64,000 bases of DNA, from NCBI GenBank assembly GCA_023078555.1, contig CM041198.1:10277836-10341835 (forward strand), read 5' to 3'. Positions 7,116 to 62,700 of this stretch are shown one piece after another. A model generated the notes under the pieces. The model was not told where the DNA came from. It saw nothing but the letters and a program-made list of their open reading frames with translations, and made no database searches. How positions within the stretch are numbered: position 1 is the stretch's first letter; each line of letters begins with the position of its first letter. Source of the DNA: Ulva prolifera (lineage: Eukaryota; Chlorophyta; Ulvophyceae; Ulvales; Ulvaceae). The translations under genes and the position numbers were made by a program.

Positions 7116-7588
7116 TGAAAAAGCCCCTTGGCAGATCTTACAAATCGCGATGACAGGGATGCAAGTCACGATTATGTGCGCCTGCGTTTGTACGGCTCAG
7201 TATTGTAGCCTGGGCAATGAATCACAACATCGGCATGAAGTTTAGCATGTGATTGCTGCTGCACCGCTTTGATCGACAGATTGTTCGATGCTAATTCGCT
7301 CCCTGGCATGCCTCGGCATCGCCTGCATGCCCCGGTTCCGGTTCCAGCGCACAACCCCGCTATGTAGTGAACCAGTCTGGTCCCACAGATCGCAACCGCC
7401 TGCATCTTGTCAAAATACAGTCTTGCCTTCCCGCGAGGGCAACTCGATTGAGAACAGCCAATGTGTCGCACTGGACAACTATCTCCGGCTTCTTCGATGC
7501 TACGCGGCCCGGCCACGTATGTACCTGCGTCTTTACAAGGACATCGGTGTCCTTGCTGGGTGCCCTAAGATTGACAGTTTGCTCTGCA
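7116..7588. promoter_or_regulatory. Shared intergenic region between divergent TL29 and RPB3 start codons
   Basis: About 470 bp separate the two start codons, so both promoters and 5' UTRs must lie here. I see no clear TATA box or plastid-light element. An upstream in-frame extension of the RPB3 frame back to 7367 exists but is not conserved in the family. Confidence 0.4.
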
Positions 7589-8747
7589 ATGGACGACTTG
7601 CATGAAACTCTCGAGCTTCGACATGCTGATTGCGCCCGCTGTGAATTTGTACTTAAAAATGCAGACATCAGTGTTGCTAACGCACTGCGCCGATCGATGT
7701 TGGCTTGGGTTCCAACCATAGCGATCGATTTGGTAGAATTTGAAATCAACACATCAGTACTGTCTGATGAGTTCATAGCACACCGGCTTGGCCTCATTCC
7801 TCTCCGCAGCCATTTTGCGCCTGGATGGAACACAGTATATGAGGCCGGAGAGGACGGTGATGTGCAAGAAGTCAACTTTGAGCTCCATGTGAAGAACAAT
7901 ACAAATCGGGATTTGAAGGTCACGAGCGACGAACTGGTGCACGATGCAGACTATCCTTCTGTTCTACCAGTTGGCTACAGGACGGGTCCGGCGTATGATT
8001 CCAACATAGACACTGTGCGAGGTATTCAGACAGCATATCAACATATGGCGTGCTGCATGGGTGTCATCATGCTGTTGTTACTAAGTGTGTGTGTGCAGAT
8101 AGTGTGCACACGGGTGAAAGCAATTACATGCTTCAGCCTGTAAAGATCATGATGCTAGCACCTGGACAAGAAATAAAACTGAGGGCAGTAGCCAGGAAGG
8201 GCGTTGGAAAAGATCACGCAAAGTGGATGTCGGTTGCGACTGTGTCCATGTCGCGAGTACCTGACATCAAGCTCAATGTTGCCCTGATGTCCACGCTTAC
8301 TGATGCACAAAAGAGAGAATTCGTGGAGTCCTGTCCACAAAAAGTGTTCAGGATATCACCCGTCAATAACATGGTGTGTTGGTCCTTCTACTGTCATTTA
8401 TGCATGCAGGTTGCAGGTGATGAGAGCGATTGACTTCTGCATGTTCACAATGTGGTGGTGCATTTTGCTGCATTGTACAAGCACAGTCTCGCAATGTTGC
8501 CATATCAATTTGCCGTTTCATGCAGATTGAGGTCGTAGATGCTGAGATGTACGCATTTGATGACGAACCACTCATTAAGGCAGCTGATATGGGCTATCAA
8601 GACCTGGTGTCGATGAAGCCACGAAAGGATTACTTCATTTTTAAAGTGGAAAGCACAGGTGCTTTGTATGCATACAATATAGTCCTGCTGGCTTTTGATG
8701 TGCTGTTGGCAAAGCTTGGCACACTGAAATACTCTGGGCAAGCGTGA
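7589..8747 (+). CDS. RPB3: DNA-directed RNA polymerase II subunit RPB3 (NRPB3-like)
   Basis: Alpha-like assembly subunit that pairs with RPB11 to nucleate RNA polymerase II (and Pol IV/V in plants). Three exons join in frame, 7589-8021, 8099-8373 and 8526-8747, giving 309 residues. The N-terminal dimerisation domain has [33 protein letters not shown] and [13 protein letters not shown]. The second half has [19 protein letters not shown] and [18 protein letters not shown], which match plant NRPB3 better than the Pol I/III paralogue RPAC1. The C-terminal part VEVVDxEMYxxDDE also follows NRPB3. Unusually, the loop after HRLGLIPL has no cysteines, while most RPB3 proteins carry a four-Cys zinc site there. 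RPAC1 also lacks it, so a divergent paralogue is possible. The start is the ATG that brings the first beta strand into register. Confidence 0.9.
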
Positions 8748-14999: not shown

Positions 15000-17215
15000 C
15001 AGTAGCCATGCATTTTAACATGTCCGGGATGCGGTGCCGTTACATTTACAGTCGACTGTTGCACGATGCAACACATCTCTGACGATGAGGGCCGTCTGTG
15101 CTGGACGTCGATAGGGTGATGGTGGAAGGTGGTGACATGCTTTGATGAAAGCAGTCGGCACGGATTCATGCAATTTTAACTTGATTGGTCTGTGTGTGGA
15201 CTTCCTGGACGTCTGGTTTGCAATGTGGATATGCGGGTCGTATCAGTGCTAGTAGTCAGATCGTGCGGCCGTCACGCAGGTGCTTCATTCCCAGGGTGTT
15301 GTACGCATGTTGACTCTGTTCGATGGCCTGGGGTCCGTGCTGGGCTGCATGTATGCGGTGGTAAGATTAAATGTTACACCCCGGCCAAGACAATAAACAA
15401 GTCAGCATATCGTGGTGCGTTCCTTCTCGCTGTAATTTTGCAGCTCGCCGCCTTGACTCCCCTCCTCTAAACCGGATGAATCTCTGGCATTGTACTCAGG
15501 GACAGGGAACTAAAGTGATGTGCTTTTGGCGAGTTGTGTGTATACTGTTCAACGAGTCTTATTGGTGTCAATTACGGGTATGGGAGGTCGTGTTGGTAGG
15601 AGCGTCGCTCATGGGCTGGCAATGGCATGCTATCCGCATGATGGAAAGTCGCCTAGGGGGTCATGCACTCCCGCTAAAGGGTGGGACCAGCAAGGGCGCG
15701 CAAAATCGACGGCGATTTTGACTGATTGGGCAAGCTTTTGACTATTGTTTACGTCTAATGCACAATCTGGGAGGTCTAACTCGTACGATTGGGGAAATCG
15801 GCCCGTATTCGCCAATCAGGCTTCTTGGGTTGGGGAGAATCGCCATTTGGGGAGCGCGGCTCCCCAATCCTCCCCGATCCTTCCCAATCGCACAGCCGCT
15901 TGCCCAATCCTTCCCAAACCATCTCTGTGTAGGCTATATTTGCATTTAGGAGCCCCTGGGGGGTCGCGCCTGTTTCTATGGCCCCGCCAGGTGCGCATGT
16001 GGTGACGTTTTATTTGAAGTCTGACCATCATGCCACTACGTCCCGGAACTCAATGTGTACACACCTGTGTGATACCCATTTAAGGCATGAAATATGTACC
16101 TCAGTTCAGCATACATCCTCTCCCGTTGGAGCACGTATCAACTGACAGACAGCTGTGTATGATTTGTTGTCATTCACCATCGCATCACTCTGCTCATCCA
16201 GGTCAGAGCTCTTCAATCAATTTCAGTCACTTGTATTTAGAGCTATGAGTTCAATTCTGCGGACCGTATGATCGCAATGTAGCATCATGATCACTGCCAA
16301 TGAGCAGCCTCGATGGCAACCATATACCATATCCGGCTGCATTCAGATACGATAATGCCAATCGACATTGTCTGATATAAAAGGAAGAATCATCCGCGCC
16401 ATATGCACGTGTTGAGTGCTTGTAATTGAAGGTGTCACATCCGTTGAGCTGATGCCTCTTTGATAAGGCAGCTGCAATACACTGTAGCCCAGTGTGGATG
16501 TGCGCTGGTGTGGATTCGTGGCTGACTGAAGCGGGCTAGCAGATTATCCAACCAGCTATCTCCTCGGTGTCGTGTGGACATCGATTGAAAAAAAAGACGG
16601 TGGTTCAGAGCAGTTGCAATGTGAAGGCCTCCGTGCAGCTGCAGAGCTAGAAATAGTTCGCAGATCGTGCAGCTCATGAATCAATGCTTACTCCACTGAA
16701 TCCCTGGACTGCCCTGTGTAGTCTCATCGTTGTATAGTGGGAGGTGGTGAGTAGGCTCGGTGAGTCTCTTGCAACATGTGCATTTTCAGTACATGCACCA
16801 TATGTGTCCAGTCTTTCCCAAGGAGGCTACATGAAAATAAAGCATATTTTATCTGATAAGTCTCCGGCGTATCCGTGGAATGATTTTATGTGTCGCAGTT
16901 GTGTTGCGTTGCGAATGATCACCGCATTCTGCTCTCACCAATGCGCAATCCATCAACCCAGTTTGCCAGCAGGCGCTACTGTCTGGCAAAACTGCAATAT
17001 GTTACCGCATGGTCCTATCGCAGATTAATCTGGCATCACCATTGCTGGTGCATGCGCGTGCAGGGGCTTGGAATCTCACAGGATTACGTTGGTAACCTTT
17101 GTATGCCACACGCAAATACATTCAGTACACTATAATTTAACAATTGACGGCCAGATAACCGCTAGCCGGCGATGGTCAGACAGGTTTACGGCAGCCCAAC
17201 GTCGTTACACATGGT
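15000..17215. other. Long stretch without a recognisable gene
   Basis: About 2.2 kb downstream of the methionine-salvage gene. Short ORFs in all frames lack known domains. A perfect 9-bp GC-rich hairpin (TTGGGGAGC, loop GCG, GCTCCCCAA) lies at 15847-15867, inside a zone rich in GATTGGGGA and TCCCCAATC words (about 15780-15920). Otherwise I see nothing. Confidence 0.4.
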
Positions 17216-17779
<564 letters not shown>

Positions 17780-17859
17780 CGCACACGCTGTGTGGGTCCG
17801 GCGAAGGTGCTGCCGTTGCGTGGGTGGTTTGGTGTGAGCTTCGCGTGGCTTGCTGCGTG

Positions 17860-17932
17860 GTGTGCGGTTCCCCTGGTTCTTGCTTGCGGTGCTACCTGCC
17901 TCGCTTGCTTTGTCCTTGTAACACACACACGC
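17860..17932. repeat. Dispersed repeat end, copy 1
   Basis: The stretch GCGGTGCTACCTGCCTCGC through CTTTGTCCTTGTAACACACA recurs with few changes at about 23946-23985. Both copies lead into CA-rich or AC-rich sequence. This could be the end of an unnamed mobile element. Confidence 0.55.
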
Positions 17933-17969
17933 ACACGCACACGCACACGCACACGCACACGCACACGCA
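17918..17969. repeat. (CACACG)n hexanucleotide microsatellite
   Basis: Eight or so units of ACACGC follow directly after the dispersed repeat copy, about 140 bp beyond the ACGC array. Confidence 0.95.
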
Positions 17970-18924
17970 AGGATGATTTCCAAGGGCTCATACTGGATCA
18001 ATCCCAGATGGCTTGAAGCGGTCACTGCAGTGCTGTTGCAATGTTGTGAGATGTCTATCTCACCTTGGCGCGGGTTGTTCGTCGCATGCATGCACACGAC
18101 TCGGATCTGGTGGTAGCGATCACAAATTTGCAGATAAGGCAACACATCCTCCATCGCATAATCATCAGATTATTATTGTTTATACTTTTATGTCATCAAA
18201 ATTTTGCCCTGCATACACATTAGCGCCACGTGCGGACGTCGGTCAGCTCTAGCCATGTGGCTGCGAGGGTGTCGCGCGTCAGTCACATCACGATTCGCTA
18301 AGGCGTAATATATCTCATGACAATGCATTGAGTTCGTCGTGCACTAAAACGAGCACGCCGAGCACAAGTTAGATCTTATCAAAGAACATGCCATTCGGAG
18401 GCACTCAGTCGTAAGGGAACCGAACCCGCTACGCAACTGCCACGCTAGAGTACTACACGAAATTGTCATCATGTCACGTCTGGAGTGAACTTTGACATGC
18501 ACGTTATACTCCGATACGAGCAGTCAGCTTGCCGGAAGTTACATGCATGTGTCAGTGAGCACAATTATACTCGTCACACCATAACGCTTCCACCGAGTCC
18601 GGTGTCGAGCGCATGTCAGCCAATCATGTTAGCTATCCCGCAATTATTAGGGATCCAGTCAGCGTGCTCTACTTTTGTGTAGCACACTAGCGTGGCCGGT
18701 CTTAGTAGGGGTGTTCTGGGTGCAGTCAAAACATTATTTGTACCGTGCACTTGCTGGGAGTCGTCCTTCGGTGTTACAGAGTACGAATTTGAGAACTCTA
18801 TTTCCATCATGTCGTATGCATACGTTGTTTACATTCTTAAAACACTCCTGTGTTAGAAATGCCGATTCCAGTTTCCGTGCTGCGGTGTAAGGCCCAATCT
18901 TTCCAAGCCGTATACATCAAGGTG
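17970..18924. other. No gene seen
   Basis: About 950 bp of unique-looking, AT-richer sequence with only short ORFs and no recognised motif. Confidence 0.4.
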
Positions 18925-20434: not shown

Positions 20435-20577
20435 AGCGACTACTCTCATGCGCCAATCCAAACACAATGAACATGTAATTCAGTATCGGTGTGACGAGCG
20501 TCCAAACAATAGAATGCGGTTGTCCCGACCTTTACAACATATGCCCGACGAACCAAGGAAATATTCAACAGCCCGTC

Positions 20578-21426
20578 TGTTGTGGGATATCCATATCTGG
20601 GGATCCAAGAATATAGATGACATAATCAAGGGAGGAGACATCTAACAAAGGACTCGTTGCTTCAGGTGAGCCCCAGTGGTAGAGCATGTCGTGTGTACTC
20701 ATGAGGTCACCGGTTCAATTCTTACTTTCATTTCTGCCGCGCGACTTTACGCGTTGGCAAGGTACGCTCCCCTCCACGCCGTCATGCACAGTCAGCATGC
20801 TTACCAGCTCAGGCACGCGCATTAACCCCTGTGCACACTCGATGAGACTAACACGCGTCTTGACAGGTATCGGTGAGCAGACTTCGTAATCTGCCTTACA
20901 GCTTCCATCTTCATTACACCTTCCGCTGTGTGAGCTCCTCCCGAGCGATCGCATCCCAGTCAGCATAGCTCTCGAGCTTAAGGGAGTCCCAGTTATATGA
21001 GTTCGGTTATAGCGGGTTGGGCCCCCGTGGACTCGGGACGCGAAGAGAAGGTTCCAACATTCCATCAGGAGCATCGAAGATATCCCACAGTTATCAGATC
21101 TGGATCTCCCTACGCTCGATCCTCGTTAAGGGGGGAAGTGTTGTGGGATATCCATATCTGGGGATCCAAGAATATAGATGACATAATCAAGGGAGGAGAC
21201 ATCTAACAAAGGACTCGTTGCTTCCGGTGAGCCCCAGTGGTAGAGCATGTCGTGTGTACTCATGAGGTCACCGGTTCAATTCTTACTTTCATTTCTGCCG
21301 CGCGACTTTACGCGTTGGCAAGGTACGCTCCCCTCCACGTCGTCATGCACAGTCAGCATGCTTACCAGCTCAGGCACGCGCATTAACCCCTGTGCACACT
21401 CGATGAGACTAACACGCGTCTTGACA
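20578..21426 (+). mobile_element. Terminal-repeat retrotransposon in miniature (TRIM) with 288-bp LTRs
   Basis: Two nearly identical 288-bp LTRs (20578-20865 and 21139-21426) start TGTTGTGGG and end CTTGACA. They flank only about 273 bp of non-coding DNA. A primer-binding-site-like sequence GGTATCGGTGAGCAG follows the 5' LTR directly, resembling the initiator-tRNA-Met site. A polypurine tract AAGGGGGGAAG precedes the 3' LTR. A 5-bp duplication CCGTC flanks the element (20573-20577 and 21427-21431). It has no coding capacity, so it must borrow proteins from an autonomous element. It sits inside TIR element A1. Confidence 0.92.
20669..20722 (+). promoter_or_regulatory. tRNA-like Pol III A and B boxes inside the TRIM 5' LTR
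   Basis: AGCCCCAGTGG (20669-20679) resembles the tRNA A box and GGTTCAATTCT (20712-20722) resembles the B box. The spacing of 32 bp is typical for tRNA genes. The same pair occurs in the 3' LTR at 21230-21283. In the solo copy (33536-33823, minus strand) the A box is AGCTCTAGTGG and the B box is degraded. The whole does not fold as a proper tRNA. Confidence 0.55.
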
Positions 21427-21556
21427 CCGTCTGTCCCTCCATCCACATAGACGACGGCACATAAATAAATTAAAATTCTTTTCGCGTCGAGTCATAGTGA
21501 AACCCACCACGACTCTTTATATTACATACGGTATACACATTGACGGTCAAGGTTAC

Positions 21557-21913
21557 TGTCAGAAATGCTTAATTTGCGCAGGTCAGACGCGCAGTCTTCA
21601 CGTCAGGTCAGGTCAGGCTGCCAGTGTTCCATACCTGCTGCGCACAGAGGTAGAACCGAGGAACACTAAAGGGAAGAAGCTAATACCGTGAAACAGTAGA
21701 GAGAATGGTTACAGATCATAGCGTGCACATCCATATATGCACACTGAACACTCAAGGTTACGGCGGGAAACCCTCGCAGGATCTCCCTCGCTACACCGGG
21801 ACAATCCCGCTGGCGGCTTACCCCTGCACCGGATCCGTAGATCGATCGTGCATGGGTGCACCTGTCACCACACTGCTGCCCGCATGCTGCCCGCAGGCTC
21901 ATGCATTGTGACA
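21557..21913 (-). repeat. Solo LTR of copia-2 family, inserted in an older LTR
   Basis: On the + strand it runs TGTCAGAAATGC to GCATTGTGACA, that is, reverse orientation relative to the element. Perfect GTTAC duplications flank it (21552-21556 and 21914-21918). It is 10 bp longer than the 347-bp reference because CCCGCATGCTG is duplicated near its end. Confidence 0.93.
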
Positions 21914-32883: not shown

Positions 32884-33210
32884 TTCGGTTTAGACGCGTA
32901 GTCTATTGGTAAGGGCAGGTCGGGAGGCCAATATCCCATACCTGCTGCGCACTGAGGTAGAACCTTGGAATACGATGGGGAGATGTCTAGTGCCGTGAAA
33001 CAATACAGATAATGGTTATAGATCATAGTGTGCATCTCAATATATGCACACCGGCAGTCAAGATTACGGCGGGAGATCTATACCAGGTTCTCCCTCACTG
33101 CTCCGGGACAATCTCGCTGGCGACTTACCCGTGCACTCAATCTGCAGATCGATCCGTGCATGGGTGTACGTGTCACCACACTGTTGCCCGTAAGCTCATG
33201 CATTGCGACA
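32884..33210 (-). repeat. Degenerate copia-2 family solo LTR
   Basis: Follows the reference LTR (TAGACGCG, ACCTGCTGCGCAC, GAGGTAGAACC, TTACGGCGGGA, GGGTGTACGTGTCACCACAC) and ends GCATTGCGACA, with many substitutions, so it is an old copy. Confidence 0.8.
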
Positions 33211-33535
33211 GGCCCATACGTTGTGACATGGTCGCAGCTCGAATACTATGCCATGCTCGAAGTATGCAATGCAACTTTGAACGATGCGACTGATGCAGCC
33301 ACGCGCTTGACGCATCTACATCCAGCTCTTCGGCGCACACTACGTCCAGGAACAAAATAATCATAGACGATTACACCTATTTGTCCTCACACCGAGATGC
33401 TACCCAACAAGCACTCACACCGAGTCATTAGCGGCCAACGCGCTAGCAACCATGCCAAGCATTTCGATTCGCTCAAGCAGCAACGGTTGCAGGCAAGATA
33501 CGAGGCCCGCGCAAGCGAACCGGGTCATGTCTAGC

Positions 33536-33823
33536 TGTCAAGACGCGTGTTAGTCTCATCGAGTGTGCACAGGGGTTAATGCGCGTGCCTGAGCTGGTAA
33601 GCATGCTGACTGTGCATGACGACGTGGAGGGGAGCGTACCTTGCCATCGCGTAAAGTCGCGCGGCAGAAATGAAAGTAAGAATTGAATTGGTGACCTCAT
33701 GAGTACACACTACATGCTCTACCACTAGAGCTCACCTGAAGCAACGAGTCCTTTGTTAGACGACTCCACCCTTGATTATGTCATCTATATTCTTGGATCC
33801 CCAGATATGGATATCCCACAACA
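33536..33823 (-). repeat. Solo LTR of the TRIM family
   Basis: A 288-bp reverse-orientation copy of the TRIM LTR at 20578-20865, flanked by perfect CTAGC duplications (33531-33535 and 33824-33828). It interrupts the decayed Copia copy that follows. Confidence 0.93.
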
Positions 33824-33828
33824 CTAGC

Positions 33829-36800: not shown

Positions 36801-37516
36801 AGTGCTTGGCGTCGTGGGTCGCTCCGAGCAGTTGCCGTCAGGAAGCAGAAGCCCTCTGACCCTGATTGCCTTCTATGAAGGGTGGACTTGCGGGTCCGGA
36901 CCGGGATGCTTGGTTTCGTACCATGTAGGAGGAGGTAGATGCACCGGGTGAGCACGGAACTTTCGAGTTGTGCTATGTGCCTGCGGGCAAACGGGCTTTC
37001 TCAGGCAAATGGGTGCGTAAGATTAAGCGTGGGCTGTCACAATGCATGAGCCTGCGGGCATCAGTGTGGTGACAGGTGCACCCATGCACGGACGATTTGC
37101 GGATCCGGTGCAGGGGTAAGCCGCCAGCCGGGATTATCTCGATGTAGTGAGGGAGATCGTGCGAGGGTTTCCCGCCGTAACCTTGAGTGTTCAGTGTGCA
37201 TATAAGGACGTGCACACTGAGATCTGTAACCATTTCTCTTCACTGTCTCACAGTACTAGCACTCTCCTTTCCAGTGTTTCCTCGGTTCTACCTCTGTGCG
37301 CAGAAGGTATGGAACACTGGCCTCCTGACCTGACCTGACGTAAGACTGCGCGTCTGATCTGACCGAATGAAGAATTTCTGACATAGGCCTGCGAGTGAGA
37401 TTCAACGCTACAAGCCACGTTCTGTAGCTCGTGGCTTCTCTTAAGTAGAAGGGGTCGACTTCTTTGAGAATTGGTCTCTAGTAAGCAGTTATGCGACAAT
37501 GTGTGTGTTGCTGTCC
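33829..37516 (+). pseudogene. Decayed Copia gag-pol copy (copia-2 family) with many stops
   Basis: Broken frames match the copia-2 protein in order. They are a protease strand with NFIVDSGSDMHIV (about 33985), GLRHEQMYLDTSRSVLDVPG (34230), HGCKIG zinc-type residues (34675), integrase core GGVKYILFVMCAFTRYTF and HTDNGGEF (34800-34990), NGMIERR (35070), a variable linker, and RT start LCYVPAGKRAFSGKWVRKIK (about 36970-37030). The RT is split by a solo LTR at 37035-37383 and resumes to about 37510 (FFENWSLVSSYATM). Numerous stops and frameshifts make it non-functional. Sequence just before the solo TRIM LTR (33430-33530) may be its gag. Confidence 0.85.
37035..37383 (+). repeat. Solo LTR of copia-2 family inserted in the decayed Copia RT
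   Basis: Runs TGTCACAATGC to ATTTCTGACA in forward orientation, flanked by TGGGC (37030-37034) and TAGGC (37384-37388), a target duplication with one later substitution. Confidence 0.9.
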
Positions 37517-53655: not shown

Positions 53656-56600
53656 ATGTCATCATCAGAAGAGGAAGCTGCTCTTGAAGCTGAGGCTACG
53701 GCCGAAGCTGAGAGGCAAGCTGCTCTCTTGCACGCTTCGGGCGATGCACCTGGTGGCGTACCCACTACTAGCCGTGCTGATGGGCCAGCCGCTGGTACTA
53801 GACGTGCACAAGCTGCACAAGCTGCCTCTCAGCTTGAAGCTGCTAACGCTACGGCGGAGCAAGCTCGGGTTGAAGCAAGCAATGTGCGCGCTGCTCTAGC
53901 GCGCGCGGAATAGGCTCGTGAAGCTGCCGAGGCTGAGGCGGAAGCTCTGCGTGCTACGACCCAGGCTGAAGCTGATGACTCAGGTAATAGTCATCTGAAT
54001 GCGAACTTAGTTGATGCTAATGCCATAGTTGACGCAATGAGATCTATGAACTTCCGTGAGCCCGCGATTGACAAAGGGAAGTCCCCACAGTGGGATTTTA
54101 GTAAAGGTGAACGATTCTCAACGTTTGAGTTTCGTGTTGAGCTCTGGCTCAAAGGCCATGGCCTTCATCACCTTCTGACAGAATTGCCTACTGGTCCTGA
54201 GACTGCAACTCATGACAAGGTAATGGCAGTTGTATGCTTTGCACTGCCAGCACAGGACTTAGAATATGTCCGTGTGTTTGTCTCCCTTAAGGATGTATGG
54301 AGTGCACTGCGTGCCAAGTATATGCCTAGCATAGAGGCAGAGATCGGATCCCTATGGGATAGGTTCTCCCGTGCTGTACTCAAAGGACATAGAGCCACGC
54401 AGGTAGAAGAATACTGCACATACATTATGTCCTTAGTCAATCAGCTGACTGCTTTGGGTGCTCAACCTGCTCAGTACCAGGTTAGCAACAAGCTGTTCGA
54501 GCCTCTCGGTCAGGAATTTGTATCATTGCGTAGTGAGCAAGGAGGTTGTGATTTCCTCACTCAGATAGCTGCCATCACGAATCACGCACGGGCATTAGAT
54601 GCCTGTGGACCTCCCCAAGGGGCAGGGCGTGATCATGGCCCTAGAGGTAGGAACCCACAACAGCCACAGCGCCCTGCAGTTGCTGCCGTTACTGTCAGAA
54701 ATGCTACCATTTGTGCAGGGCGGACGCGCAGTCCTCGTTCAGGTCAGGTCAGGACAGCCAGCATCTCATACCTGCTGCGCACAGAGGTAGAACCGAGAGA
54801 TGCTGAAGGGAAGTGCTAGTACCGGGAAACAGTAAAGAGATTGGTTACAGATCTCAGTGTGCACATGCTTATATGCACACAGAACACTCAAGGTTACGGC
54901 GGGAAACCCTCGCACGATCTCTCTCACTACATCGAGACAATCCTAGCTGGCGGCTTACCCCTACACTGGATCCGCGGATCGTCCGTGCATGGGTGCACCT
55001 GTCACCACGCTGCTGCCCGCAGGCTCATGCATTGTGACAGTCGCTGCCAATGAGACCCGCACATGCTACGTGTGCAAGAAGACATGCCATCTCTAGAAGG
55101 ACTGCCCGGATATCCATCCGGAGGTCAGAAAGTTCCTCTCTGAGCAGGCAGCTCAGCCTCGCGGCAACAACACCGGCCGCGGACGAGGACGCGGACGCGG
55201 ACGCGGACGGGGCAGAGGCCCATCCGTCGCTGCACTGGAGTTTCCAGGTGACGGATTCAGCATGGTTGATGTTGCCCGCCTGGGCGAGCTGTGCAATTTT
55301 CTCATAGACAGTGGATCTCAAGCTCATGTGATCCGTAATCCTGAGCTATTCGTCTGCATGCGGAAATCGAGAATCCCGTGCATCCAGCCTGTCGGTGACG
55401 AGGACATTCCTGTCGTGGGCGAAGGAACAATTTGTTTCAAAGTAGGTTCGTATGTGACTACGGGTGGTGATGTGAAGGAATTAGTCCTAGAGATCCCGAG
55501 TTGTCTGTATGTCCCTGCATGCCCCTTGAACATCTTGTCTACGGAGGAGTTCAAGCATGAGGATATTTTCCTGCAAACACGTGCTGTCACGGAGGCAGGT
55601 GATATAGTCATCATCCCAGGCTTCTCTGACCAGGCCCTAGGCCACAAGGAGGGTAGGATTAACCAATCCACAGACGCGAAGAATCGACCTGTTCTTTTCA
55701 TTGAGACAGATAAGGGCAAGCCCATCCTAAGGGGTGAGCAAGTCAATAGTCCTAGTGCGTGGTCCTCGAGCAATGCCGTGGCAAAGCTCGAGAGTGACGA
55801 GGCCGATCTCTGCAGAATAGCTGCATTGACTGGCAAGGCACAACATGTTCCGGATGCTGCGAAGCTGAACACGACATTTTTGACACATTTGAGTCTGCAA
55901 ACGGGCACATCCATTCTGCAAATGATGTCCAAAGCTGAGGTGTATAAGGGTTTAGGAATAAAATCTGATGTGGTGAAGGAGAATCTAGGTCGCTGCCACG
56001 GTTGTCGCCTAGCCTCCCATGATTCCGGCTCTAGCAATCAGCATGGCACAAATGTAGAACATGATGAGGCCCAATGGCCTGGTGCATGGCTGCATGTTGG
56101 TGTTATGGGTCCCATTTTGCCTGTAGGGGTAGGAAAAGCACGGTACATTCTCATAGTCGTCGATGAGCATTCACGTTACAGTTTTGCTTGTCCAATGGAT
56201 GCGAAGTCTAGAGTGCCGCAGCTGCTAGTTGAAATCATTGAGCACATACGGTCTAGTGTTCTTCCGCATGAGTTCGTTGATGATGAGGGCATTAAGATCA
56301 CACCTAGAGTCATGGGTGTACACGGAGATCGCGGCGGAGAGTTTGAGGGTCACAATATCCAAGATTATTTCTCAGAGAACGGGATACCGTGGGAAACATG
56401 TGCTCCTGGACACCATGAGGGCAATGGTATTGTAGAGCGTACGTGTGGTGTCACCTCTGACAAAATGCGTGCTGCAATTCTCCCCACCGATCTACCCCGC
56501 CGGCTATGGCCTGAGGGGGGGATGTGTGTCAACCATTGCACTAATCTTGTGCCTGGCAATGCTTTGATGGCTCGTGAAAAGAAAAAGTTCATAAACAAGA

Positions 56601-59416
56601 ATTTGTCCAATGCGATCGAAAATCTCAGTAGAGCTAATAGAAGTAGAGTGCTCGCAGTGAAATCGAAAGGTGTGAGTAACAAGCCCGCTCCAGCTAAAGG
56701 TGATAAGCTTATGACAAAGGAAGAGATCACGGCACAGGAAAAGCGTGGCGAAAGTGAGCGGTGCAATAGACTCTGGGAAAACACTAATTTCCGACTTGTG
56801 GTCCCGTATATGGTCTTCTACGGGAGATCATTGAATCTTGAACGATTCAAACTGCTTGTAGAGCAGATGCGCCCGTGGGGTTTGCTAGTGTATTTCTATC
56901 AGAATGGTCAGCATCTACGCAGACTAGACGCTAGGGGAGCAAACGATGTGTGGGTAGGTCCGGGTCAAGGCCCACACATGAACAGGGTTTACCAATCCGT
57001 ACCGGGGGGCGGCAAAGTGATTGAAGTGCGGCAGATGGTGTATAGCGCTGCGATGTTGCGTGAGTACATCAAGAAATTCGATAGCGTGGAGATAGGGCTC
57101 ATGCCGTCAGCGACTAGGAGTGTTGTTGAGAAACTAAAATTCCATCCCAAGATGGCGGAAAAGGTGTACGCGCCCCCTTTGTCAGATGTCGATGCAGTTG
57201 CTGCTCGCAAGCAGTACATACAAGTGCACGGCGCTGCTGAGTATAATTTTGACGGGATGGCCATAGGCAAGAATCTTGTTGACCTGCATGATTCGGAGTA
57301 CATCGACGATAGCCTGGCCGCAGAGTTTGAGCATGTAGTTCCGGAGCTGGGGGATGACCTCGGTTCAGGGGAGCTACAGCGGAAGACTAGACAGACAACA
57401 CCAGAGGTAGTGGAGAACGTCCATGCGGTAGTGCGTAGTCAAGAGCTACGCCAAGGTGCTGCTGATTTGCACCTCCAGCAAGGTGAGAACATCGAGTGCG
57501 TCAACAATCACTCCAACGTCGACCGCTTTCGGGAGCTTGAGCACTCCAACATCGACATGTCGCCATCGGCCGCACACAATAGCCAGAGGGCGAAGAGCTT
57601 CACATCTCCGGGGAGATCTCTCGCCGGCGACTCTGGCAGAGTAGATGAGGTGAGTGTCCGCGACATGGAGATACAACATCAACCCAGCTCTGCCGCGGCG
57701 GGATCAGCTGGCCCGCTGCGAGGGGCCATGGGAGATATTGGGGGACCCGTCCCCAGGGCTTCAGGCGAACGGGCTACGGCTCGCAGCTTGGAGCATGGAA
57801 TGGACTACATGCACGAGCATCTGGGTGGATTTATCTCCAGGAGAGAGGTAAGTCCGGCCCCAAACTCACCTGTCGCTGGGGAGTCTATGCATCCTGCTAA
57901 AGAAGTTAGTTTTGATTTGCATCCTGCTAAAGAAGTTAGTTTTGATTTGCATGACACTGCTGCTGATGCCCAAGGGCAGGAAGCGCAGTCGGCCCCAGTT
58001 AGACACAAATGGAACCCGCTTGTACGCAAGCGCTTGATTCCACATGCAGATGTTGCTGTCGTAGAAGCTAGTGTTGATATAGAGCATAGCACAGTGAGTG
58101 AGCAGACGGTAGCACCAAAGGTTGCCGACAGATCAGGCATGTTGGCTACGGCTGACAGTGCAGTGACTGGTGCAGAGGTGACCAAGCATGGGGAGCTTGA
58201 TGGCGGTAAGTCAGCCCAGCGACGTTCATCCCGTCGGGTTGCAGCCATTAAGAAGAGGAAGCCTTTTGATCCTGATAGCCCGCCTTGGAAACAGGCCTTA
58301 GCTGGAGAAGATGCCGAGAAGTGGCATGGTGCTATGAAGGAGGAGGTGACTTCGTTGAGCGAGCACGGAACTTATGAGCTCGTTGAGCTGCCAGTAGGGG
58401 CCAAGGCCATTTCTGGTAAGTGGGTCTATAAGATAAAGAGGGGACCCACAGGGGAGATCCAGCGTTACAAGGCGCGGTGTGTAGCTAGGGGTTTTACCCA
58501 AGAAGAGGGAATTGATTTCTTTGAAACGTGGGCTCCAGTAGGGAGCTATGCTACTTTGCGTGCATTGCTTTCGATCGCTGCAGTAGAGGACTTAGAAATG
58601 AAGCATGTCGATATCCAGTGTGCCTTTCTGAATGGGGTAATGAATGAGACTGTCTACGTTGAACAGCCTCCTATCCTGAATGACGGTACAAATCGTGTGT
58701 GGAAATTGCTTAAGACTTTGTATGGGTTGAAGCAGGCTGCACGTGAATGGCACAAGGCCCTTGCACGTTTGCTAGGTGAAATGGGTTTTGTGAGATCACA
58801 TTCAGACCCAGCACTGTATGTTAGAAAAACTGGTAGTTGTTTCATATTTTTGTGGGTCGATGATCTTTTTATCTTTGGACGGTCTACGGGCCTGAAGGAG
58901 TTGATCGATCAGATTCTCAAAGCATTTGAAGGTAGAGACCTTGGTGACTTGTCGTGGGCACTAGGTGCCTCAATCACCAGGGATAGGAAGCAGAAGATCA
59001 TCTCTCTATCTCAGCAGCAGAAAGTTGTGAACCTGCTAGAGAAATTCAGCATGGCAGCTTGCAGACCTAGTCCAACTCCGCTGGTGCCAAGGCAACAGTT
59101 GAGGAGTGCTACGGATCATCCCGAACTTGAGGTAGCAGACCAGGCTGAGCACGCTAGATTCATGAGTGCTGTAGGAGGCATCCAATATATTGCTGTAGTT
59201 ACGCGGCCTGATATTTCTTATGCCTGCAATGTTTTGGCCAAACATATGGGGTGTAGTTTAAAGGAGCATTGGCCAGCGGTGCAACATATACTGAGATACC
59301 TGCAGTCCACGAAGGAACTAGGTCTAGTGTTTGAGGGCTCATCAAAGAGCTGTTTGCTGGAAGGCTATTCAGATGCTGATTTCGCGAATGACAAAGGCCT
59401 GAAATGTGTGAGTGGC
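53656..59416 (+). pseudogene. Copia-1 gag-pol polyprotein (GAG-PR-IN-RT-RH), nearly intact
   Basis: GAG begins MSSSEEEAALEAEATAEAER, with an Ala-rich coiled-coil and a gag domain (WDFSKGERFSTFEFRVELWL). Its zinc knuckle CYVCKKTCHL-stop-KDC follows the solo LTR. Protease is FLIDSGSQAHVI (about 55300). Integrase has CHGC, then LHVGVMG where the first catalytic Asp is Gly (codon 56099-56101), then GDRGGEF and NGIVERT. RT runs from AISGKWVYKIKRG, VDIQCAFLNG and LYGLKQAAREW to a catalytic LWVDD (58850-58864) in place of the usual YVDD. RNase H stops at YSDADFANDKGLKCVSG. The defects are stops at 53911 and 55094, the LTR insertion, the Asp-to-Gly change and the missing 3' end. Removing the LTR plus one 5-bp repeat restores a single frame. 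A 33-bp tandem duplication lies at 57890-57950. Confidence 0.92.
54693..55039 (-). repeat. Solo LTR of copia-2 family inserted in copia-1 gag
   Basis: A 347-bp reverse-orientation LTR (TGTCAGAAATGC to GCATTGTGACA on the + strand). The flanks GTTAC (54688-54692) and GTCGC (55040-55044) are an imperfect 5-bp duplication. Excising LTR plus one repeat restores the gag-pol frame, supporting the boundaries. Confidence 0.9.
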
Positions 59417-59763
59417 TGTCAGAAATGCTCTATTGTCAGGTCAGACGCGCAGTCTTTCGTACAGGTCAGGTCAGGGCAGCCAGCGTTCCATACCTGCTGC
59501 GCACAGAGGTAGAACCGAGGAACGCTATAAGGAGAGTGCTAGCACCGGGAAACAGTAAGGAGAAATGGTTACAGATCTCAGTGTGTACATGCTTATATGC
59601 ACACTGAACACACAAGGTTACGGCGGGAAACCCTCGCGGGATCTCTCTCACTACATCGAGACAATCTCGGCTGGCGGCTTACCCCTACACTGGATCCGCG
59701 GATCGTCCGTGCATGGGTGCACCTGTCACCACACTGCTGCCCGCAGGCTCATGCATTGTGACA
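59417..59763 (-). repeat. 3' LTR of copia-2
   Basis: A 347-bp LTR reading TGTCACAATGCATGAGCC ... GCATTTCTGACA on the minus strand. It lies directly after the polypurine tract ATGGGGGAG (59764-59772, minus strand). It provides the reference for the solo LTRs of this family in the window. Confidence 0.93.
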
Positions 59764-59780: not shown

Positions 59781-62700
59781 CTACGTCTCCACTAGCTGGA
59801 GTTTATTACGAACCTCTAGCAACGCAGGTCCGGGCAGCACTTTAGTAAACACATCCGCTAACTGATCAACAGTGCCTACCCATGCTACCTTAAGTTCATC
59901 CATCTGGACATATTCCCGCACTCGCAAGTGCCGCACACGAATGTGCTTGGATCTGTCAGTGGACACAGCATTCACAGCCAAGATGTTGGCACTCTTATTG
60001 TCACCCCACAAAGTCGGCTTATGCGGAAAGAGTTTTAAATCGAGAAGCAACTGCTTCACCCACATCAACTCGTTGGCTGTTGCACTCATTGCAATGAGTT
60101 CAGCCTCTGTTGTGTCCCCAGCCACTATACTCTGCTTCTTCGAGCGCCAGAGAAAACAGTTCCCATACACCCGAATAACCATACCAGATACGCTTTTCAG
60201 ATCAGCAGAGTTCGCAAAATCTGCATCTGAAAAAGCCTCTAGTAAACACCCGTGTCCCTCAGAGCCTATGAATTTTATCCTTAGATTCTTTGTGGACTGC
60301 AGGTATCTCAGAACATGTTGCACGGCAGACCAATGTTCCTTCAGACTACTAGACATGTGCCGGGCCAGGGCATGTGCCACATAGCTTAGGTCAGGTCGTG
60401 TCACTCCTGCAATATACTGGATACTTCCTACAGCACTCATGAACCTGGAATGCTCAGCAGCACTGGCTTTTTCCAGGTCAGGATGCTCTTTCGCACTCCT
60501 TAGTTGTTGCCGCGGCACTAAGGGAGTGGGAGACTTGCGACAGTCAGACATACTGTACTTTTCAAGCAAGTTGTGAATTTTATTTCGTTGTGTCATGATG
60601 ATTGTTTTGGCCTTGCGATCACGCATGATCTCTGTGCCAAGTGCCCATGCAAGTTCACCCAGGTCTCTGCCTTCGAATTTCGTGAGAATGACGTTGACAA
60701 GTTCTTGCAGTCCCGCAGAGCTGCTAAAAATGAACAAGTCATCGACCCACAAGAAAATAAAACAGCGACCGGATGTTCTGACATACAGTCCGGGATCACT
60801 TTGTGCGCACACAAATCCCATCTCAGCTAAAACCTTTATTAAAGCTTTATGCCACTCTGAGCAGCTTGCTTCAGGCCATACAAGGTTTTATGCAATCTCC
60901 ACACATGTGCTGTCCCGTCAGTGAAGAACGGGGGCTGTTCAACGAACACTTCTTCTTCTAACTCACCATTCAGAAAAGCGCACTGAATGTCTATGTGCCT
61001 AATCTCTAAATCTTCCTGAGCAGCAACCGACAGCAACACACGCAGTGTCGCATAACTACCAACAGGAGACCAAGTCTCAAAGAAGTCAATCCCTTCTACC
61101 TGAGAAAAACCACGCGCTACATAACGTGCCTTATAGCGCTGAATCTCCCCCGCAGGCCCACGCTTAATCTTAAGCACCCATTTGCCCGAGATAGCCCAGT
61201 TGCCCGCAGGCAGATAGCACAACCCGAAGGTTCCGTGCTCACCTAGTGCATCTACCTCCTCCTGCATGACACTTAGCCATGCATCCCTGTCAGCACTCGC
61301 GAGTGCTTCCTTCAAAGAAGGCATATCAGGGTCAGAGGGTTTCTGCTTCCTGGCGGCAGCTGCTCTGCGCGACCCACGACGCTGAGCATTCTGCTGCTCA
61401 CCAGACTCCACATGCTGAGGCTTCAGGCCTGCACAGGACACTCCACAGTCAGCCGCGGCTGATGTGTCCTGATCGTAAGTTGAAACATCAATAGCAGCTA
61501 CAACTGTCTCACTGCTAGCAAAGTCAGAGCCCGCAGGCTCATGCATATGCACAGCTGCTACATCCGCAGCCAATGGAACAAGGCGTCTGCGTACAAGAGG
61601 ATTGATTTTTATGCGAGGCAAGGCGGCTGGAATGGCCCTCACCTCGTCAGGCAAATCAACCCCAACTGCGGCTGAGGGGTCCGGATCCTCTCCCCCTAAT
61701 TCGGACCCGGTCTCCACCTCATCTGGCTCATCCTCCCAGAAGGGCCTCGGCGCCTCAGCTCCTCGCAAGGGCTGAGCAACTGCCCCCGCGCCAGATGCTG
61801 AGGCCGCTGCCGAATTACTCCCGGAACGGACCCGCTGAGCCTCCAGATTCTGATGAGCCGCAGCCCTTTCATCATCTGAGACGGTGTAATCCATGCGCTG
61901 TTCGTCATCGTCGTCATAGATGCCAGGACTGTCGTCATCCTCATCCATGTCGTCATCAGACGCACTGACAGACACTTGAACAGGGAACGCAACTTCTACA
62001 CCAGGGTCGTGCAACACAGCATTGCGCGTGACAACATACTGCGCAGTGCGGGAGGGCGTGGCGACAGGGTGATGCACTTCGCCGCGCACACGAGGGGGGA
62101 CAGGGACGTCAGGGTGAGCAGCAGCTCTGGATGTCGCACGCGTGCGATGCAAAGCTGCTCTGGCTATTTCCGGTGTTGCCCTAGCAGGGTCACGTCGGAT
62201 AATCTCCGCAGAGGAGCCAGCTCCAAATCGTGGAGAGTACACAGCAGGACTGGGCTCAGGGTTGTCCTGCCGCAATGTCATTTCCATGACAGGAACCCTA
62301 CCATGACCGGGGGGGTGTGAAGCTGGTCACGCAGACGGCGCAACACTCCCCCATCATACATGTGCTCTGCCGCGAAAGGAGGGACATCAGCATCAGTCAC
62401 ACGCTCACCCTCATCGTCCCCCTCGAGGGCAACCGTATAGGAGTTCGCAAACTCTTTAGGCTCCCGCTTGTCCACAACGGCGGACGCATCGTACTTGCGT
62501 ACGTGCCGGATCATCTGATCCGCAGTGCACATGACCTGACGCACAACAAAAACCCTACCCCCAGGAACATCCTGGGCGTACACACGCTGCATGCTGGGGC
62601 CCAAACCAGCCCCGACCCAGTATGCAGGCACACCCCGGGGGGACAACTTCCGCAGCTTGTCATCCCTAGGGTATGCATACACTTCAACCCCCCACGGACG

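Follow-up and report, generated by a model that had tools for sequence, protein, structure and literature searches.

The window analysed here, a 64,000-nucleotide stretch of the Ulva prolifera genome (G000:C3:10277836-10341835; 88.9 Mb in 44 contigs), carries at positions 20578-21426 an 849-bp element made of two long terminal repeats (LTRs) of 288 bp, 99.3% identical to each other, and a 273-bp interior (Table 1). A preliminary description of this DNA had seen in it a terminal-repeat retrotransposon in miniature (TRIM) with a primer-binding site (PBS), a polypurine tract (PPT) and CCGTC target repeats, all of which were confirmed, as were its coordinates. The element stays under the 1000 bp allowed for a TRIM, no stop-to-stop frame of 200 aa or more, the length from which frames were listed, overlaps it, and its identity as a TRIM is practically certain. 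Each LTR also contains two motifs resembling the A and B boxes of internal RNA polymerase III (Pol III) promoters, with the 32-bp gap first reported for them. A solo LTR of the same family elsewhere in the window is 96.5% identical over 33535-33823 and has AATTCAATTCT as its B box.

Table 1. Parts of the TRIM and of its solo LTR, in window coordinates
Feature	Position	Strand	Basis or remark
Target-site duplication, left, CCGTC	20573..20577	+	
5' LTR, 288 bp, TG...CA ends	20578..20865	+	LTR alignment
Segment of 5' LTR, very probably tRNA-Thr(UGU)-derived; best local alignment 20674-20719	20662..20722	+	alignment against shuffles
A-box-like motif AGCCCCAGTGG, 5' LTR; one base longer than in tRNA-Thr, weak matrix score	20669..20679	+	
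B-box-like motif GGTTCAATTCT, 5' LTR; matrix score close to tRNA median	20712..20722	+	
Internal domain, 273 bp, without long open frame	20866..21138	+	
PBS GGTATCGGTGAG, complementary to initiator tRNA-Met 3' end	20866..20877	+	
PPT AAGGGGGGAAG	21128..21138	+	also in element Z
3' LTR, 288 bp, TG...CA ends	21139..21426	+	LTR alignment
Segment of 3' LTR, very probably tRNA-Thr-derived	21223..21283	+	99.3% LTR identity
A motif AGCCCCAGTGG, 3' LTR	21230..21240	+	
B motif GGTTCAATTCT, 3' LTR	21273..21283	+	
Target-site duplication, right, CCGTC	21427..21431	+	
Solo LTR of the TRIM family	33536..33823	-	CTAGC duplications at 33531-33535 and 33824-33828

The segment that holds both boxes almost surely descends from a tRNA-Thr gene, judging by its alignment. 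The LTR was compared with 60 of the genome's tRNA genes, representing 51 distinct sequences: its positions 97-142 match the nuclear tRNA-Thr(UGU) genes (L038, L039) with an alignment score of 45, where 500 rounds of dinucleotide shuffling yield no more than 32. This alignment begins in the D arm, passes through the anticodon arm and ends at the B box. The derived segment as a whole spans LTR positions ~85-145 and keeps a tRNA-like spacing of the boxes. A matrix for the two boxes was built from the genome's own tRNAs; it is crude, with 49 of the 51 sequences used and three very low-scoring A boxes that are probably misplaced. With this matrix the best A and B pair of the LTR scores 17.3, which lies above all 432 of 432 background blocks of the window (maximum 12.3) and below all 51 distinct tRNA sequences (minimum 21.3). 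The tRNA-like nature claimed for the boxes is thereby upheld by both the alignment and the pair score. ARAGORN called no tRNA in the segment, an Rfam search of the element up to E = 10 returned neither a tRNA nor a 5S rRNA match, and the segment has no unusually stable or tRNA-like RNA fold (z -0.11).

The TRIM belongs to a family with many copies. A search of the genome with the whole element gave 41 matches, and the counts that follow are lower bounds because 40 of 161 candidates were scored. From the first 25 loci L016 was dropped, since it overlaps L008, and L022 has a single full LTR, leaving 23 complete copies with two or more full LTRs; the LTR pair is identical in 13 of the 23, and exact 5-bp target duplications flank 19. 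A 25-base probe lying in the tRNA-like part found 153 genome places at up to 3 mismatches, against 0 for the reversed probe; ~100 of these places were listed and 46 read, all 46 falling within LTR matches of the TRIM family and 38 in full-length LTRs. Together with one LTR that the probe missed, these make 39 full-length solo LTRs (L091-L130), 84-98% identical to the window copy, with exact duplications at 32, duplications one base off at 4 and none at 3; a further 12 LTR matches, not of full length, were left out of this count. The claim that the family has been mobile, drawn earlier from the solo copy in the window, gains from the CTAGC repeats flanking that copy as well as from the identical LTR pairs and exact duplications, and by its sequences the family is recently active. 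One complete copy (L011) has 5' and 3' LTRs from different subfamilies (6 differences) between an intact 5-bp duplication and, from this arrangement, appears to be a recombinant between TRIM copies. No short interspersed element (SINE) with the TRIM's tRNA-like part occurs among the 46 probe places read, and no autonomous element with TRIM LTRs in the loci read, most probe places and their flanks lying outside that reading. Two pairs of same-strand LTRs ~4 kb apart were considered as the ends of an autonomous partner: at L091 both LTRs have their own duplications, and at L092 one does, the other (matched over 1-287) falling outside the duplication test. An older TRIM subfamily, sought by its extra segment, gave one genome place only, and L093:143-545, taken up as another LTR family, is an old TRIM copy holding another repeat.

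The interior begins with 12 bases, GGTATCGGTGAG, that are complementary to initiator tRNA-Met at its 3' end, CCA included; among 60 other tRNAs the best match is 11 of 14 bases, found at 3 of the 255 interior positions, and 12 is never attained. The Cassandra TRIMs of vascular plants likewise have a PBS for initiator tRNA-Met. A pattern search for initiator tRNAs returned four initiator-like genome places, three of them exact, and the three initiator tRNAs read differ in the acceptor stem (ATCGATG in L131 and L132, ATCGGTG in L133). The site of this difference coincides with the one variable site of the PBS, which among 23 first PBSs is G in 17 and A in 6, the other positions of the 12 being unchanged. 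A 21-base PBS probe with up to 3 mismatches found 32 genome places, of which 20 are exact and 8 differ by the A form alone; a reversed control gave 4. Across the 25 loci (26 PBSs) the A form is confined to loci with the TA form of the LTR, where G is also present, and the two interiors of one tandem copy of the form LTR-interior-LTR-interior-LTR (L008/L016, G000:C7:4650413-4651824) differ in PBS form. The pattern fits a PBS that may have been rewritten from the primer tRNA; a single shared mutation that by chance struck the very same site (~1 in 36 by rough reckoning) is possible as well.

Two kinds of larger LTR element are probable helpers of the TRIM, to go by the sequences they share with it. 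Element Z (10.0 kb) lies inside a TRIM copy (L029/L030, G000:C4:1071161-1082042) and must have been inserted very recently, as its 862-bp LTRs are 100% identical. Z and the TRIM have in common the LTR start TGTTGTG, the LTR end GACA and 14 bases at the PPT, GTTAAGGGGGGAAG, and the PBS of Z, GGTATCGAT, is the A form of the TRIM PBS; outside these stretches the two interiors agree at 17 of their last 30 bases and at 12 of their first 20. Family X has two pairs of copies 9.2 kb apart, on C1, with the PBS GGTATCGAT in L137 and one change from it in L139, the other four X places read running into other sequence. The gag-like start of X is by eye similar to that of Z, whose gag-like fragment has no Pfam match. 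The best A and B pairs in the X flank (5.7) and the Z LTR (4.6) both stay under the background maximum. At a further locus (L134) an X-type LTR runs straight into a TRIM interior that has 261 of 273 bases identical; on the far side of this interior a repeat, Y, starts one base past the tract. The sequence upstream of five other Y copies is unrelated, and the stretch read at L134 showed no 3' LTR. We read this arrangement as a putative LTR swap by template switching with Y inserted later, for which plain recombination or an assembly artefact are rival readings. It is unlikely, if conceivable, that the TRIM interior alternates between LTRs of two kinds, its own with a tRNA-derived (Pol III) promoter and, at L134, that of a 9-10-kb helper (Pol II), so that template switching at the initiator-tRNA primer site common to both would amount to a natural swap of promoters. 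A copia-type element of the window (53.9-59.5 kb) was rejected as a helper, the only direct repeat found for it being a ~350-bp repeat at the edges of its open reading frames (ORFs) and not a flanking LTR pair.

Conservation of the boxes was compared with that of the remaining LTR by counting sites with a variant common to two or more entries. The alignment took in only LTRs matched over about positions 3-285, and the copy holding Z was entered twice, as its halves L029 and L030, so that 28 complete-copy entries represent 27 insertions and 71 entries represent 70. Among the 28 complete-copy entries shared variants occur at 1 of 11 A-box sites (11 of 277 elsewhere, p = 0.38) and at 0 of 11 sites in the B box, which is invariant (12 of 277 elsewhere, p = 1.0). 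The test on all copies (95 LTRs from 71 entries) omitted LTR 116-140 because the 25-base probe that brought most solo LTRs covers those positions. Here the A box has shared variants at 5 of 11 sites against 42 of 252 (p = 0.03, in the direction of more variation), the B box at 1 of 5 against 46 of 258, the two together at 6 of 16 against 41 of 247 (p = 0.05) and the whole tRNA-like part at 9 of 46 against 38 of 217 (p = 0.83). In this single young family the boxes show no conservation beyond that of the rest of the LTR; the power of the test is low, since the majority of copies are dead solo LTRs and the complete copies are young. The preliminary description had expected such conservation, with its Pol III proposal to fall otherwise, and this expectation was not borne out.

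Somewhat probable, in our view, is a non-coding Helenus-type TRIM (described below) whose Pol III promoter is a tRNA-Thr remnant and whose helpers are X/Z-type elements. The remnant would have served as an internal promoter, placing the RNA start upstream of the 5' LTR's A box; the RNA would be primed by initiator tRNA-Met and copied by proteins of the 9-10-kb LTR retrotransposons in the same genome, and the DNA integrated with a 5-bp target duplication. Such transcripts could read through to the 3' LTR, for neither strand of the window TRIM contains a four-T (T4) terminator. Among the 23 complete copies, which are near-identical, T4 is likewise missing from the plus strand of 22 and from the minus strand of all 23; it occurs within 40 bp of the 3' end in 57 of 60 tRNA genes of the genome (a count without computed background). 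The absence of T4 was discarded as evidence for Pol III, given that 21-26% of shuffles of the unique 561 bp and 26% of window stretches of equal length also have none.

Several of these observations weigh against a Pol III promoter. The LTR A box scores 3.6 against a tRNA median of 14.5, and its region contains one extra C relative to tRNA-Thr(UGU); the cloverleaf is lost, as the missing Rfam tRNA match up to E = 10 and the fold z of -0.11 indicate; T4 is absent; and the boxes are not preserved beyond their surroundings, with the A box if anything more variable. The B box scores 13.7, near the tRNA median of 15.2. Whether Pol III drives the element today is to us slightly short of an even question, with a plausible promoter: transcription by Pol III is possible and no more than plausible, because the boxes are not extra conserved, the A box exceeds its tRNA counterpart by one base and T4 is lacking.

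The same points lend themselves to a reading in which the tRNA-Thr segment is a passenger, a piece of a tRNA gene or the head of a SINE once inserted in the LTR, and the element is transcribed by Pol II as in an ordinary TRIM. A degraded A box, boxes without extra conservation, a vanished cloverleaf and a missing T4 would all be expected of such a passenger, and a TATA-like sequence lies upstream by our reading by eye. What speaks for a promoter instead is that the boxes retain tRNA spacing, that a module of the same kind occurs in TRIMs of other lineages (PMC10886601), and that the B box does not vary among the 28 complete-copy entries, which is not significant for want of variants. We consider the passenger reading a real possibility that stops short of being probable. 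A role of the tRNA-like part in the RNA itself, in dimerisation, packaging or primer capture and not as promoter, is very unlikely: the segment lies inside the LTR and hence would be in the RNA, but its fold is neither unusually stable nor tRNA-like, the PBS matches initiator tRNA-Met rather than tRNA-Thr, and Helenus is reported without complementarity between LTR module and PBS (PMC10886601). That the boxes are chance matches without tRNA ancestry, as the silence of Rfam and ARAGORN and a pair score under every tRNA tested might suggest, is hardly credible beside an alignment score of 45 against a shuffle maximum of 32 that continues through the anticodon arm of tRNA-Thr(UGU).

The possibility raised earlier that such an element was undescribed no longer holds, since TRIMs with tRNA-derived LTR sequence were published as Helenus from fungi, animals and Selaginella moellendorffii (Kojima 2024, PMC10886601, Table 1). 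That paper proposes an origin by SINE insertion into an LTR, leaves Pol III use unproven, and finds an A box TRGCY...YGG and a B box GGTTC in most Helenus LTRs; the Ulva LTR has GGTTC, and its A-box region the extra base and the low score. As in Helenus, tRNA-derived sequence with A and B boxes occurs in each LTR of a TRIM with PBS, PPT and solo LTRs, and no functional tRNA. Fungal and plant Helenus share the 5-bp target duplications, one fungal family has a helper with an unlike LTR and common interior pieces, and some fungal families are Thr-like or use the 3' end of initiator tRNA-Met (PMC10886601). Unlike in Helenus, the host here is a photosynthetic lineage outside Table 1 of that paper, one base is added in the A box, and in conservation the boxes do not exceed their flanks, a comparison limited to one family here and drawn there between tRNAs and families, where conservation is not part of the designation. 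Going by that paper's description and not by consensus sequences, the element is a Helenus-type TRIM in a new lineage and not a new kind.

Like Cassandra, TRIMs of vascular plants that carry 5S rRNA with conserved promoter and terminator and the PBS TGGTATCAGAGC (PMC7215508), the element has a remnant of a small RNA gene in its LTR; unlike in Cassandra, the remnant is of tRNA-Thr, T4 is absent, and 5S rRNA is not among the Rfam matches up to E = 10. TRIMs known from Chlamydomonas, Volvox and Chondrus (PMC4717578) resemble it in structure, size and tandem forms, and the term 'tRNA-derived' is missing from the main text of that paper. With tRNA-derived SINEs it shares a tRNA-derived part with A and B boxes, and differs from them in its LTRs, PBS, PPT and 5-bp duplications. 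Among the matches listed in our literature searches, within the collection and terms used, no tRNA-bearing TRIM is reported from an alga, and no further paper on Helenus, from 2024 on, or on TRIMp3 was found beyond PMC10886601. If our account is correct, tRNA-bearing TRIMs would extend from fungi, animals and one lycophyte (PMC10886601, Table 1) to another photosynthetic lineage, which would support the view that non-autonomous LTR elements have captured Pol III promoters repeatedly and independently; a young active family with candidate helpers and a PBS that possibly records the priming initiator tRNA would make Pol III use and trans-mobilisation testable.

Elsewhere in the window, two copia-type elements (RVT_2) lie at 53914-59512, for which no LTR pair was found, and at 59781-62326 (reverse). 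The ~350-bp repeat mentioned above has near-inverted ends, TGTCAGAAATGC...GCATTGTGACA, occurs at 54688-55040, 59416-59763, 37034-37383 (reverse), 21552-21888 and 32892-33210, and sits within or between copia ORF pieces at three places; from its sequence it looks like an insertion of the type of miniature inverted-repeat transposable elements. A long simple repeat of ACGC type (17159-18016) gives repeated HART- or RACV-like residues in several open frames. An Rpb3-like frame (RNA polymerase II subunit 3) at 7295-8143 was taken as the plant type, its second-best solved-structure match being annotated as subunit 3 of RNA polymerases II, IV and V. In keeping with a photosynthetic, algal host, the chlorophyll a/b-binding family has 38 matches in the genome, counted exon by exon.
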